The notes beneath the pieces are model-generated. The model was not told the DNA's origin, ran no database searches, and was given only the letters and a program-made list of their open reading frames with translations. A program made the translations under genes and the position numbers. Below are positions 76 to 3,970 of a stretch of DNA of 21,538 bases, in pieces; position 1 is the first letter of the stretch; each line of letters begins with the position of its first letter. The stretch is from a virus. The stretch is taken from the IMG/VR virus record IMGVR_UViG_3300036985_002277, positions 1-21,538 of that record; one strand, 5' to 3'.

Positions 76-135
76 TTCTTTTTTTTTGTTAGATATGTGC
101 GTGTTATGGCGTATAGCGATTCGTTAGTGGCAAGG

Positions 136-312
136 CTAACCCAACACGCCAGCTAACCAAATTGGACAAAATATTAGCCAGTATAAAAAACGTTCTTGCA
201 AACTGACAGCTAAGTTGTCTTTACCTATTGTCTTGCAATCATTCCTCCAAATAAGATAGAATGGTATAAATAATACCAGTTGTAATAATATACATATCAA
301 TATTTCAATCAT
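136..312 (-). CDS. Small membrane protein (58 aa), cassette gene
   Basis: A 58-codon frame from ATG at 312 to TAG at 138-136. The product has two hydrophobic stretches, about residues 2-19 (MIEILICILLQLVLFIPF) and 43-58 (YWLIFCPIWLAGVLG), joined by a short polar segment with NDCKTIGKDN, so it is probably a two-pass inner-membrane peptide. I do not recognise a family. The gene is bracketed by complementary sequence: GTTAGTGGC on the minus strand just upstream (347-339) and GCCACTAAC just downstream (131-123). That bracketing is what an integron cassette would show and supports treating the frame as real despite its size. Confidence 0.5.
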   Translation of the reverse strand: MIEILICILLQLVLFIPFYLIWRNDCKTIGKDNLAVSLQERFLYWLIFCPIWLAGVLG

Positions 313-340
313 TTTGTTTCAATTTGTGAGAAAGCCCAGC

Positions 341-471
341 CACTAACAGCGTGTATAAAAAATGGCGGGTTCTCGGTTAATTTAAAGTTTTGTTATTCTA
401 ATTAAGTTCTGCGTTTGCTGAAAGTTTTGGGTTCAAAATCCGCCACTTCTTATACACGCAAAACGTTATGT
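341..471 (-). repeat. attC-like palindrome between cassettes
   Basis: About 131 bp separating the 77-aa gene from the 58-aa gene. On the minus strand it begins ACATAAC (471-465) and ends GTTAGTG (347-341), resembling the RYYYAAC and GTTRRRY boxes of integron attC sites. Inside are 20-nt arms at 349-368 (GCGTGTATAAAAAATGGCGG) and 440-459, complementary at 18 of 20 positions. The spacers between box and arm are unequal (1 nt versus 5 nt), as in known attC sites. The length is within the usual attC range. The box sequences deviate somewhat from consensus. Confidence 0.55.
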
Positions 472-699
472 TCTAGTTTGCCCATCCGCACTTTCAGCTT
501 CTAATAATCTTTTTTCTAATTCTTTGCCTATACGAAAACAAGCAACCGCATCGTATATATCGCCCTCATCATGTTCATCTTCTTTATTATTTTCTACAAT
601 CCTTTCTTTCAGGTATTTTATATAGGCTCGCTTAACCTTGTCTTTTTCCATTCCACTATACCATGTGGCAAAATCAATTATATCTTTCATCTTATTCAT
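466..699 (-). CDS. Hypothetical cassette protein (77 aa)
   Basis: I chose the ATG at 699 (MNKMKDIIDFATWYSG). A longer version from TTG at 786 would translate the upstream palindrome and looks spurious. The 77-aa product is charged and mostly helical, with WYSGMEKDKVKRAYIKYLKER, then a DEHDEGD acidic patch, then KELEKRLLEAE. It has no signal peptide or membrane segment, and I do not recognise the family. It lies between two attC-like palindromes. The sequence before it (GTTATGTT on the minus strand, 740-733) is complementary to the AACATAAC straight after its stop, which supports a self-contained cassette. Confidence 0.5.
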   Translation of the reverse strand: MNKMKDIIDFATWYSGMEKDKVKRAYIKYLKERIVENNKEDEHDEGDIYDAVACFRIGKELEKRLLEAESADGQTRT

Positions 700-733
700 T
701 TTAATTATTAATTTATCCTTTAGCAAACCGAAA

Positions 734-795
734 ACATAACACAGGCTAAAACAACATTGCGAAAAGCAACGATTGTTTAGCCTCAACCGTTATGC
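734..795 (-). repeat. Compact attC-like site (62 bp)
   Basis: The clearest attC-like element. The minus strand reads GCATAAC (795-789), then arm 783-766 and arm 760-743 around a five-base loop, then GTTATGT (740-734). The arms on the plus strand are AGGCTAAAACAACATTGC (743-760) and GCAACGATTGTTTAGCCT (766-783). The outer eight and the loop-proximal four pairs match, and the mismatches lie between them. Size, box position and imperfect stem all agree with short attC sites of mobile integrons. It overlaps the stop codon of the 102-aa gene. Confidence 0.65.
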
Positions 796-1098
796 CCCAT
801 TTAAGAAGCGTTTAGCGTACTCAATTCCCATTTCAAAAGCATCGGTTAATTTTCTTCGTTCAAGCCACTTGCTATTATTCGGGTTTCCGACAATCTCACG
901 TGCATAGTTTAATCCCGCACAATAAATTCCTTTATCTGTTTTTGGGCTTTCACCATCCAGTTTAAATTCGTACTGTTCAAATATTGGAGGTCTATAATCT
1001 GTTATCCCGTCCCACTCAGGAATAGATAAACGGGGCATAACAGCACCCTTATTCAATGCGGGGGTTTCTGCTTCGTTTGACAAATTTTTGTTACTCAT
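790..1098 (-). CDS. Hypothetical cassette protein (102 aa)
   Basis: Runs from ATG at 1098 to TAA at 792-790. The product is soluble, with a polar N-terminus (MSNKNLSNEAETPALNKG) and a more conserved-looking body: IPEWDGITDYRPPIFEQYEFK, then a C-terminal helical part with GLNYAREIVGN and DAFEMGIEYAKRFLNGA. I do not recognise the family; the C-terminal pair of similar helices (GLNYARE / GIEYAKR) may be a repeated helix unit. Its stop codon overlaps the compact attC-like site at 734-795. Unlike its neighbours, no copy of its expected 5' cassette end (GTTATGCC) is visible upstream between 1098 and 1160. Confidence 0.55.
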   Translation of the reverse strand: MSNKNLSNEAETPALNKGAVMPRLSIPEWDGITDYRPPIFEQYEFKLDGESPKTDKGIYCAGLNYAREIVGNPNNSKWLERRKLTDAFEMGIEYAKRFLNGA

Positions 1099-1159
1099 AA
1101 TTTTGTACTTTTAATGTTGTTCAGTGCTATTAAACCCGCACTAAATAAGGCTGCCTACC

Positions 1160-1192
1160 GTTATCGGTAATGTTTTTTTTCATTTTAATTTT
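1160..1192 (+). repeat. Left inverted repeat of PP-loop cassette
   Basis: 33 bp starting GTTATCGGTAATG followed by a T-run and CATTTTAATTTT. Its reverse complement recurs at 2019-2051 with 31 of 33 positions identical, so the PP-loop gene lies between long inverted repeats. A GAGGACACAGAG sequence sits just inside each end in direct orientation (1196-1207 and 2007-2018, apart from the first base at the left copy). Confidence 0.75.
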
Positions 1193-1213
1193 AAAGAGGA
1201 CACAGAGCCGCTA

Positions 1214-1993
1214 CTAATCAAATGCACACACTTCACACGGCTGTTTGTCTTGACCTAAATCCCTTCCGAATGTTGTGTAAAATTCAACATTATCCCTTCC
1301 CCAGTGTTTATTTAATTCTTCTGATAATTCAACTGCTTTTACAAAGTATTCGGGATAGTGTTCTTTCACATTCGCAAAATCATCTGTTTGCATATTCTTA
1401 CACGGCAGACAATTATTGTGAGGGAATACCCTTTCGCCTTTGGAATCTTTTATGTCATAAATTTTCGGATACCAACCAATTTCTTTTTTCACAATCTGAA
1501 AACACCACTCATTATTTTTGTGAGCAATCGGAAACCCCTTTGTTATTTTCGTGTCGGGATTTTTTGCCCACATATTTCTTATTCGCCTTCCTTCCTCTTT
1601 TACATAGCCAACTAAATCAATATCGGTTTTATTTTCAGCAGCGTATTTCATCATTGGTTCAATCTTCAACATTCGGGTGCAAGGTGCAACCATCGGGTGC
1701 GGAATCATATTTTGTTCCCGAAAGAATTTTAGAATTGAATTATTGGTTTGGCTGTAATGCACATTCTGAAAATGTTTCTTCGCATACTCCACTCCATCCA
1801 AAACAAATTGCAAAGTGTCGGGTGAATGTTCTTCAAAGTGTGCATAAAATAAATGCAACTCCTTCGGCTTGCAATTCTCTGGACAAGTTGCCAACCAACA
1901 CAAAACAGCCATTGAGTTTATTCCACCTGATAAACCAACCAACACTTTCTTGTCGCTGTAATCTTGATAATCTATAAATAGTTCTTGTTGCAT
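1214..1993 (-). CDS. PP-loop / PAPS-reductase-like protein (259 aa)
   Basis: The start is ATG at 1993 (MQQELFIDYQDYSD); an upstream TTG extension would be a hydrophobic artefact. A PP-loop ATP-binding motif SGGINSM occurs near residues 22-28, then a family-typical PCTRMLKIEPM segment near the middle, and two cysteine pairs near the C-terminus (CLPC and CEVC) that could hold a metal or Fe-S cluster. This is the adenine nucleotide alpha-hydrolase / phosphoadenosine phosphosulfate reductase superfamily, whose members activate substrates by adenylation. Similar proteins are common in phages and mobile elements, often without sulfate metabolism genes, as here. The substrate is unknown. The gene is enclosed by 33-bp inverted repeats and behaves as one cassette. 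Confidence 0.75.
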   Translation of the reverse strand: MQQELFIDYQDYSDKKVLVGLSGGINSMAVLCWLATCPENCKPKELHLFYAHFEEHSPDTLQFVLDGVEYAKKHFQNVHYSQTNNSILKFFREQNMIPHPMVAPCTRMLKIEPMMKYAAENKTDIDLVGYVKEEGRRIRNMWAKNPDTKITKGFPIAHKNNEWCFQIVKKEIGWYPKIYDIKDSKGERVFPHNNCLPCKNMQTDDFANVKEHYPEYFVKAVELSEELNKHWGRDNVEFYTTFGRDLGQDKQPCEVCAFD

Positions 1994-2018
1994 AATTCTA
2001 AATTTGAGGACACAGAGA

Positions 2019-2051
2019 AAAATTAAAATGAAAAAAAACACAACCGATAAC
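2019..2051 (-). repeat. Right inverted repeat of PP-loop cassette
   Basis: Reverse-complement partner of 1160-1192; read on the minus strand it starts GTTATCGGTTGTG followed by eight T and CATTTTAATTTT. Two adjacent positions differ from the left copy. Its outer part is also the 3' box of the attC-like palindrome 2045-2195. Confidence 0.75.
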
Positions 2052-2195
2052 AATAAGATTAAAAGAAATTAAAAAATAAAAAGCATTGGTCGTTACCCAA
2101 GCAGTTTTACTTCTAATTAACAGTGTCGGAACTTCAAACATTTGTACTTCTAATCTTTTTATTTTTTAACTTCTTTAATCCCTTTGGCGTTAGGC
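2045..2195 (-). repeat. attC-like palindrome, VCR-sized
   Basis: Separates the 80-aa gene from the PP-loop gene. The minus strand starts GCCTAAC (2195-2189), a perfect RYYYAAC box, and ends GTTATCG (2051-2045). Arms at 2055-2083 and 2155-2182 are A/T-rich and nearly perfectly complementary over more than 25 nt (core GATTAAA, TTAAAAAATAAAAAG). A roughly 70-nt loop lies between them. At about 150 bp it is slightly longer than most attC sites, and the 3' box is a poor GTTRRRY match. Confidence 0.5.
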
Positions 2196-2218
2196 GTAAT
2201 GCCACCCCGACGCACAGA

Positions 2219-2461
2219 TTAGTGCAAATCTTCTTCCTTAATATCTCTGTAACTTTTTAGCTGTTCTATAAGCTCGTCAAGTTGTTCGGTAAGCATTACC
2301 ATTCTCAGTTCTTTTATACCTCGCTCTCTGACAATAACAGATTCATTGTTAACTGAGTATTTTACATCGTCAACTAAGAAAATTATTTCGTGTACCTTTT
2401 TAAATTCTTCACCAACTTTCTTGTAAAGTAGGTTTTCTCTTGTCTGCAATAATTGATTCAT
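2219..2461 (-). CDS. Hypothetical cassette protein (80 aa)
   Basis: From ATG at 2461 (MNQLLQTRENLLYKKVGEEF) to a stop at 2219. The 80-aa product has a short beta-like centre (EIIFLVDDVKYSVNNESVIV) flanked by charged helices, and ends QLDELIEQLKSYRDIKEEDLH, which may form a short coiled coil. There is no membrane segment and no family that I recognise. The minus strand before the gene reads GTTAGGCGTA (2516-2507), and the sequence after it reads TACGCCTAAC. This ten-base match is what is expected for the two ends of one integron cassette. Confidence 0.55.
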   Translation of the reverse strand: MNQLLQTRENLLYKKVGEEFKKVHEIIFLVDDVKYSVNNESVIVRERGIKELRMVMLTEQLDELIEQLKSYRDIKEEDLH

Positions 2462-2808
2462 TTTTTATGTTTTTAATAATTAATATTCCTTCCCTTCTGT
2501 GGCACATACGCCTAACAGCACCTACCCGCCACCAAAGAGGCAGGCGGACGGGTAGCCGCAAACTTGGTCATCACGAGAATATTGACTCGTATTATACTGA
2601 TGTTCTCCGGTTGGTGATGAGGTACAATTTGCCATCGCTTCGTTAATTTTTAAAAATTGCTGTTTTGTATTTCAAAAGGTCGTTCGGGTTCGCTTTTTGT
2701 ACTACTTATATACTTGATACGTTAGCCGCCATCCCCTAAAGCCCCCCATCCTCCGTTTTTCTTTAATAGGCGGATTCTGTGGGGCATCCATCAAAGGCAC
2801 TTGTCCTT
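2462..2808. other. Gene-free junction, cassette array to phage module
   Basis: No convincing gene is seen in these 347 bases. GCCTAAC at 2510-2516 is the 5' end of the 80-aa cassette. Next to it, 2522-2555 can fold as a GC-rich hairpin (CTACCCG / CGGGTAG). A second core-like CGTTAGCC lies at about 2719-2726. The two cores are about 217 bp apart and their flanks are not complementary, so this is not a normal attC; it may be a truncated or chimeric one. No clear terminator follows the exonuclease gene ending at 2809. Confidence 0.4.
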
Positions 2809-3444
2809 TCAGATAGTGGGGTAGGCTTGTACTTTTCCTATTGTCTTGCAAAGTTTCACATCGTATTCATTAAGCCACTCCCGGCATTTGTCAACTTTCT
2901 CAATGATGGACTTGATATCCTCATCGTTTCTTTGAATGCGAAAGGCAGCCCAACGATCATCCCTTGGCATGGTTGAATAGATTATCTCATTGCCATAATT
3001 GCAATGCCCTGGCGTGTCCATTAGCCCATAAAAAAGGATAAATTCATCCTTGCCATATAGGTGCATATAGCCCTGACCTTGCCAATAGTAATCCATGTTC
3101 AATTCCAAAGATGAATCTTGCAAGGTTTTCTTTGACCATGGGGCCTTGACATCAACGATCAACTTTGGCATCACCACATCAGCAGTGCCGGTGATGTATG
3201 AATCTTCCATATAGACCTCATTCTTTTCAGCAAGGCCATATCCCATCACTTCTGCCATGAAGTCAATCAGCTCATTCTCCACTGCATTGCCTTTATCCAT
3301 ATACTTTGAAAATACATCTTCATGCTCACCAGTGTACCAATCTTTGAGGTAAGAGGTGCAGGTGGCTGATAGCTCACCTGCTTTCCTTGCATTACTCATT
3401 ATCTTCCCAATTTGGGAACATCGTATCTTAAATATCTTATCCAT
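2809..3444 (-). CDS. YqaJ/lambda-exonuclease-family recombination nuclease
   Basis: A 211-aa member of the PD-(D/E)XK nuclease superfamily, YqaJ viral recombinase type. Visible motifs are CSQIGKIM near residues 9-16, GNAVENELIDF (52-62, with E56), the acidic GTAD (D89), the catalytic IVDVK (D98, K100), and WQGQGYMHLYG (121-131) matching the family Q-x3-Y signature. Such enzymes resect one strand of double-stranded DNA and hand the other to an annealing protein. The ERF annealing gene lies immediately upstream and overlaps it by 8 bases, so the two form a classic two-component phage recombination system. It is the last gene of the operon. Confidence 0.88.
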   Translation of the reverse strand: MDKIFKIRCSQIGKIMSNARKAGELSATCTSYLKDWYTGEHEDVFSKYMDKGNAVENELIDFMAEVMGYGLAEKNEVYMEDSYITGTADVVMPKLIVDVKAPWSKKTLQDSSLELNMDYYWQGQGYMHLYGKDEFILFYGLMDTPGHCNYGNEIIYSTMPRDDRWAAFRIQRNDEDIKSIIEKVDKCREWLNEYDVKLCKTIGKVQAYPTI

Positions 3445-3970
3445 TTAGAAGTGCTTTTTCGACCTCTGCGGTCATTGAGTATTTTGATTTGATTTTTCCT
3501 ATTGTGTACCCATTTGAAAGGGCTTGTTTGCATTTTGCAAACTCTTCCGAGCCAATTACCAATGGAAGCAATGTCGCTGCCTTTGATGGCGTGGAGGCTT
3601 TATTTCCATCGTCATCCTCATCAATGTTCAAGTTCAGGATTGCGCCAATGGCATACCTGCGCTGATAGGTGATCACACTCCCTGCATCCTGCGGTGTCTG
3701 TTTCACTGGTGTCATGTGGTAGGTTTCCTCAAAGTATTCACCTGACACATGCAGAAGTCTGGTGGTAAGGCCCCAATTATCGCAAGGGAATTGTACAATT
3801 ACCAATTCAGCACTGCTCAAAGGCTCACTGATGGAATCCAAGATGTCAGGCAAAGCTGCATATTTGGATTTGAAAAAAGGATTGTTACTTCCTTTCTTAA
3901 TTTTTCCCACCTCGCTGTGGAATTTATGGAGGGCTTTCGCTATCTCTCCAATGGTGTCGCTTGTTTTCAT
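3437..3970 (-). CDS. erf: ERF-family single-strand annealing protein
   Basis: The start is ATG at 3970 (MKTSDTIGEIAKAL), which overlaps the upstream micro-ORF stop in an ATGA junction; a TTG nine codons earlier is less likely. The 177-aa protein has the ERF hallmarks NPFFKSKYAALPDILDSI followed by EPL, and the highly typical AGSVITYQRRYAIGAIL then NLNIDEDDDGN. ERF proteins anneal complementary single strands during recombination and genome circularisation. The C-terminal part (from about residue 125) is a separate polar domain that probably contacts a partner. The downstream exonuclease gene is the expected partner. The third to fifth codons coincide with the GCGACACC repeat found before other genes. 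Confidence 0.9.
   Translation of the reverse strand: MKTSDTIGEIAKALHKFHSEVGKIKKGSNNPFFKSKYAALPDILDSISEPLSSAELVIVQFPCDNWGLTTRLLHVSGEYFEETYHMTPVKQTPQDAGSVITYQRRYAIGAILNLNIDEDDDGNKASTPSKAATLLPLVIGSEEFAKCKQALSNGYTIGKIKSKYSMTAEVEKALLNG

Follow-up and report, generated by a model that had tools for sequence, protein, structure and literature searches.

An array of gene cassettes with integron-like sites in a phage contig and a putative site-specific recombination system of Bacteroidota and their phages

The cassette array and its borders

We examined a virus record of IMG/VR (IMGVR_UViG_3300036985_002277; 21,538 bases, all of which is referred to here as the window) whose minus strand carries, within a phage, an array of five gene cassettes at positions 123-2516. 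On this strand the array follows a replication and recombination operon coding for a DUF6291 protein, a primase-helicase, RusA, an HNH protein, ERF and an exonuclease, and is itself followed by the start of a gene for a DnaA C-terminal domain. The terminase and further genes occupy the plus strand. All features located below by window position are on the minus strand.

Cassette 1 (2189-2516) consists of a box R' GTTAGGCGTA (2507-2516), an open reading frame (ORF) of 80 amino acids (2219-2461) and a box R'' (2189-2198), the first 10 nt of its ends being all complementary. Cassette 2 (1160-2051) carries the PP-loop gene (1214-1993, 259 amino acids), whose PAPS reductase domain is the only family match among the five cassette genes, and its ends are complementary over 33 nt (1160-1192 and 2019-2051). 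Cassette 3 (789-1041) is nearly all gene, since the start codon of its ORF (790-1038, 82 amino acids) lies in R' (GTTATG) and the stop codon in R'' (GCATAAC). Cassette 4 (465-740) is made of R' GTTATGTT (733-740), a 77-amino acid ORF (466-699) and R'' (465-472), and cassette 5 (123-347) of R' GTTAGTGGC (339-347), a 58-amino acid ORF without family match (136-312) and R'' (123-131).

An initial, sequence-only reading of this DNA had described short minus-strand genes spaced by palindromes, four of them with complementary ends. The repeats are present where it placed them and the hairpins between the genes fold; the complementarity holds for those four genes, but the count was too low, as all five show it. 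The remaining gene, called as a 102-amino acid ORF (for which a search of IMG/VR returned no relatives), contains the 82-amino acid ORF of cassette 3, with GTTATGCCCC at both ends. Over 15 nt the own ends of cassettes 1 to 5 match at 11, 13, 14, 12 and 13 positions, respectively, and position 10 is mismatched in every one. Summed over positions 4-14 with position 10 left out, the pairing of each cassette with its own end scores 43, as against a mean of 21.8 and a best of 35 for the other 119 assignments.

Neighbouring cassettes are separated by attC-like hairpins. A covariance model of the site, R1, built from 28 sites, matched all four, most strongly those between cassettes 4 and 5 (348-464; GTTTT GCGTGTATAA... 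/ ...TTATACACGC T; 80 bits at 334-478, with a 23-nt inverted repeat) and between cassettes 2 and 3 (1042-1159; 48.5 bits at 1028-1173). The other two score weakly, their stems being plain from folding: the hairpin between cassettes 3 and 4 (741-788; 18.2 bits, E=0.2, at 727-802) has a stable fold, and that between cassettes 1 and 2 (2052-2188; 16.4 bits, E=0.5, at 2038-2202) folds with a 22-nt inverted repeat. An Rfam scan of the window gave no matches.

The array has a constant border on each side. The 5' border (2809-3970) is formed by the genes of the phage exonuclease (2809-3444) and the ERF annealing protein (3437-3970), with matches to phrog_5715, phrog_2324 and Pfam ERF. The 3' border is the DnaA-like gene, of which the contig end leaves only the first codons (1-75); an intact homologue (L009:2255-2659) matches Bac_DnaA_C with E=8.7e-19. 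Seven viral contigs with a 96-99% identical exonuclease have both borders in common and other genes between them. Their alignment with the window breaks off at about 2719 and resumes at about 133-81, running on to position 1; the sequence from 1 to about 90 is kept. The variable stretch begins right after the TAAC on the exonuclease side and stops at the TAAC by the DnaA-like gene. Directly after this last TAAC lies an attI-like border, GAATCGCTATACGCC... (88-122), at which the relatives change from variable to constant.

None of the window's cassette genes was found between the borders of the seven relatives. Their inserts, with ends of the same kind, code for MT-A70 methyltransferases, C5 methyltransferases, a YopX-like protein and small proteins without assignment; one further insert protein has methyltransferase-like motifs and no Pfam match, and two of the relatives (L012 and L013) have one insert in common. 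Rather than the same genes in a fixed order, as in an ordinary operon, near-identical phages hold different cassettes between the same borders.

A degenerate first site (2517-2727) lies between the exonuclease gene and cassette 1. Its hairpin GCGGCTACCC/GGGTAGGTGC is intact beside cassette 1 and its R'' has decayed (CCAAG for TAACG), the TAAC of the constant side being at 2721-2727. The site at this position is intact in most relatives; in the window it includes a remnant of about 150 bp that contains no gene, as though a cassette had been lost.

A homologue of the window's PP-loop protein, 69% identical, also sits as a cassette in another phage contig (L004). No sites of this kind were found around five further relatives of this protein (L001-L003, L005 and L006), and a search of GTDB contigs for it returned no relatives. 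Downstream of the intact DnaA-like gene, a run of genes judged by eye to resemble glycosyltransferase genes was observed (L009:3188-9185).

Distribution and anatomy of the sites

A first pattern, covering one half of the site and with a chance expectation that we estimate at below 1, matched at least 119 stretches in GTDB contigs, among those listed almost all from Bacteroidota, and at least 120 in viral contigs. With R1, 261 sites were found across 78 viral loci, and 126 of 297 Bacteroidota genomes, sampled at one per species, contained sites, up to 42 in a single genome. Only 2 of 151 and 6 of 150 genomes of two other phyla had matches, mostly weak. The combination had initially been taken to be uncommon in Bacteroidota, a view that these counts overturn. 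In one Chitinophagaceae metagenome-assembled genome (MAG; G033 contig C8, 1.7-95 kb), dozens of sites on one strand are distributed across some 95 kb, an arrangement that can be compared to a superintegron.

The site is built around a stem, L, which covaries relative to shuffled and slid controls. The two arms of the stem have the same length. A C.A mismatch within it, which is G.T in the opposite strand, is conserved, and there is an asymmetric loop, GTTTT/T. Of 363 sites, 76% have the more stable fold on the strand described by the model. The R boxes within one site show no covariation beyond TAAC/GTTA, which is expected if they come from different cassettes. Within one cassette the ends do correspond: in a set of 223 cassettes, the frequencies of a match between own ends are.90,.84,.83,.90 and.82 for the five positions that follow GTTA, against.40,.30,.26,.64 and.36 for shuffled partners. 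The match falls to.03 at position 10 and is again.70-.78 at positions 11-14.

Genes that recur beside different neighbours delimit what moves with them. The hairpin on one side of such a gene is kept, its mean stem identity reaching.86 or more in 11 of 17 clusters, and that on the other side has a mean of at most.64 in 16 of 16 clusters, the background being.58. Judged from these sequences, the unit of exchange on the model strand is hairpin, R', gene and R'', with the hairpin on the same side throughout.

Recombinases, gene orientation and cargo

In bacteria, the arrays have at one end a tyrosine recombinase gene adjoining a short attI-like sequence. Sites occur in 73 of the 98 Bacteroidota genomes with the recombinase and in 53 of the 199 without it (297 genomes; Fisher p=4e-15). 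Of 24 pairs in which recombinase and site are close together, 22 have the nearest site among those listed on the 3' side of the recombinase gene and on the opposite strand. Where the end of the array is readable, the last TAAC is succeeded by a sequence resembling TAGTATATA, at a distance of 45-105 bp from the stop codon of the recombinase gene.

Of 34 array genomes, 33 gave scores below the cut-off of the integron integrase model TIGR02249 (IntI), whose stretch 178-238 was unmatched; the model matched on both sides of the missing stretch, and about 37 residues are absent in the alignment. The one genome with IntI above cut-off is the Chloroflexota MAG OLB14 (L378; G054 contigs C7, C27, C31 and C61), whose true IntI and five R1 sites are on separate contigs, possibly through contamination by a Bacteroidota genome.

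Xer enzymes act at dif-type sites in chromosome resolution. By both sequence and fold, the array recombinases come closest to XerA or XerC-like recombinases (NF040815; PDB 4a8e and 5hxy; also IntI4, 2a3v), archaeal XerA and IntI4 being the closest solved structures. In a tree, array recombinases and IntI branch apart from the XerC/D proteins of the array genomes (SH-aLRT 100); the tree does not resolve the order of array recombinases and IntI relative to one another. The bacterial recombinases bear an N-terminal extension with a predicted beta-beta-alpha-beta-beta-alpha domain; a HARP-like assignment is not claimed, as the Pfam hits were weak and below cut-off (E 0.0025 and 0.012). On a Klebsiella plasmid (L383, NZ_CP084417.1 44025-50774), blaVEB-3 is directly preceded by a member of this recombinase family that is truncated and 53% identical. 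Further Klebsiella and Aeromonas plasmids gave similar hits, and the association may have a bearing on the origin of the VEB gene.

A search of viral contigs for the recombinase gave 80 loci. In many of them (contigs of about 24-362 kb) the array lies directly upstream of the gene of a 265-300-amino acid recombinase and on the same strand, and in many TATTATATATAC follows the last TAAC, the recombinase start codon being typically 51-52 bp further on. With one exception, the phage recombinases form a separate clade. A good terminase match was obtained on five viral contigs with recombinase and array; the others are viral by IMG/VR classification. Sequences of the attI-like TATTATATATAC/TAGTATATA kind stand beside recombinases in phages and bacteria, and the window has a border of such kind without a recombinase, with TATA at positions 8-11 as in those sites. 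Of 42 array-bearing viral contigs, 5 carry a tyrosine recombinase, so that the recombinase-free condition of the window seems to be the more frequent one, with the reservation that many of these contigs are fragments. Two viral records (L385 and L392) show the bacterial arrangement, with sites on the 3' side of the recombinase and on the opposite strand, and may represent the edges of prophages, or bacterial contigs wrongly classified as viral.

Phage and bacterial arrays differ in the direction of their genes. On the model strand, 88 phage cassette genes are sense and 2 antisense (90 called), as against 4 sense and 72 antisense in bacteria (76 called; Fisher p about 2e-39). An antisense gene corresponds to the classical order of gene, then site, so that bacterial cassettes have gene and site in the same direction as in integrons, whereas those of the window and of other phages are inverted. 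The PGAP-annotated Chryseobacterium plasmid NZ_CP041688 has this classical form, with the recombinase followed by same-strand genes, several with a site directly after them. The idea that bacterial array genes point at the recombinase was rejected, since this direction is that of the sites on the model strand and not of the genes. The inversion in phages may align the cassettes with the early operon, or may separate phage and host pools.

Cargo genes differ as well. DNA methyltransferases account for 18 of 76 distinct phage cassette proteins, which also include one Mom-family protein and one TET-associated glycosyltransferase; no restriction enzymes are among the Pfam families listed for them. 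Several of 58 bacterial cassette proteins are defence-like (GmrSD, YhcG, DarT) or resistance-like (beta-lactamase family, lincosamide nucleotidyltransferase-like). Comparison of 77 phage with 61 bacterial cassette proteins found no similar protein in both pools.

A probable integron-like system and the alternatives

We consider it very likely that the window contains a phage-borne mobile cassette array belonging to an integron-like, non-IntI site-specific recombination system that extends across Bacteroidota. In this system a cassette comprises a hairpin (GTTTT, an L stem of about 10 bp and a loop) and one gene, its outer ends (GTTANNN... / ...NNNTAAC) being complementary. Excision as a circle would bring the ends together, and an attC-like folded site would then be complete. 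The enzyme, a tyrosine recombinase that is related to IntI and lacks the insert typical of IntI, would recognise the single strand in its folded form and cleave it at G|TTA, so that cassettes could move between arrays and the short attI-like site; that the folded strand is the substrate, and that the circle inserts at the attI-like site, is suggested by analogy with integrons. Since the window phage has no recombinase, shuffling of its array would need an enzyme from the host or from a co-infecting large phage. The array would serve as an exchangeable collection of small genes, kept at one fixed position in the early operon and often including DNA methyltransferases, which could counter host restriction. 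Sequence comparison shows the array, the complementary ends, the exchange at fixed borders, its unit, the recombinase beside arrays elsewhere and the inversion of phage genes. We infer the recombination itself, with insertion and excision by the recombinase, as well as single-strand folding, the cut point, the pairing of enzyme and site, action in trans and the anti-restriction role.

Several points weigh against this interpretation. The evidence for recombination is comparative. Neither the window nor the exonuclease-matched relatives nor contigs that jointly cover the phage yielded a tyrosine recombinase. Two of the window's hairpins are weak by R1 and its first site is degenerate. The loci were gathered by sequence pattern, so the sample is biased to typical sites, and gene orientations were called from longest ORFs. 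Lastly, homologous recombination by ERF and exonuclease could account for part of the exchange between relatives.

The sequence-only reading had proposed an integron-like array lacking integrase in phage DNA, and this is borne out by the complementary ends, the hairpins and the exchange at the borders, the window having no recombinase. The system would work like an integron. As in integrons, a tyrosine recombinase is located at the end of arrays of mostly single-gene cassettes; the short sequence beside it is a candidate attI-like site. The folded sites have TAAC/GTTA boxes and complementary own ends, the exchange is consistent with G|TTA, and bacterial arrays have the gene, then the site. In contrast to integrons, the recombinase lacks the IntI insert of about 37 amino acids and has an N-terminal extension in bacteria, and the attI-like site there is beyond the 3' end of its gene. 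With the insert absent and the genes reversed in phages, the system is not an integron by definition.

Among the alternatives, it is improbable that the array is an ordinary cluster of attC sites lacking integrase (CALIN), that is, a set of classical IntI-type cassettes acquired by a phage. Phage CALINs have been described (Qi et al. 2023, PMC9892861), with integron components detected in 21 phages by classical attC models. The available text of that study presents integrase-less attC clusters with methyltransferase cassettes, one of them in a Bacteroidota phage, Polaribacter phage P12002L, whose attC works with IntI1; on this phage R1 gave only weak matches. Like attC, the sites studied here have R''/R' boxes complementary within a cassette, with a strand-asymmetric stem between them. 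However, their L'' arm has no extrahelical base on the bottom strand, where integrons have a bulged base, and shows conserved mismatches instead (in the L stem and at position 10). R1 gave no match on a class 1 integron region, IntI remained below cut-off in all array genomes but one, the neighbouring recombinase lacks the insert, and the phage genes are inverted. In the same text, no exchange locus across a phage family, dedicated recombinase or systematic inversion is reported. Integrons of Bacteroidetes are thought to be rare, and the one complete Bacteroidota integron named with IntegronFinder 2.0 is that of Salinibacter ruber (PMC9024848).

We give equally little credit to exchange by homologous recombination or annealing between similar hairpins, which would themselves be terminators or RNA elements. 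The exonuclease and ERF genes adjoin the array, the phage has no recombinase, and the hairpins could also form in RNA; yet the exchange stops at TAAC|G and not within the stems, complementarity between the ends of the same cassette is not predicted, and elsewhere a recombinase stands beside the arrays in a fixed arrangement. Finally, the inverted repeats around every gene, as long as 33 nt in the case of the PP-loop gene, could be those of separate small transposons lying side by side by chance, which is hardly credible given repeats that differ among genes and pair only within their own cassette, covarying hairpins between genes, and one-stranded arrays of up to 42 sites per genome.

With less confidence, we favour the wider proposal that Bacteroidota and their phages possess a second integron-type system, whose recombinase lacks the IntI hallmark, and that the phage version is distinguished by its own recombinase clade, an operon-like array upstream of the recombinase, inverted genes and a separate cassette pool, the inversion serving to keep phage and bacterial pools apart. 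No description of the system was found in the open-access literature, a coverage that excludes preprints and most subscription papers; if the reading is right, it has probably been overlooked because its recombinase is without the insert that marks integrases. If this proposal is correct, over a third of the sampled Bacteroidota species would harbor an integron-like system, and phages would gain a dedicated means of swapping DNA-modification genes against host restriction. The reason for the inversion of phage cassettes would then become testable.

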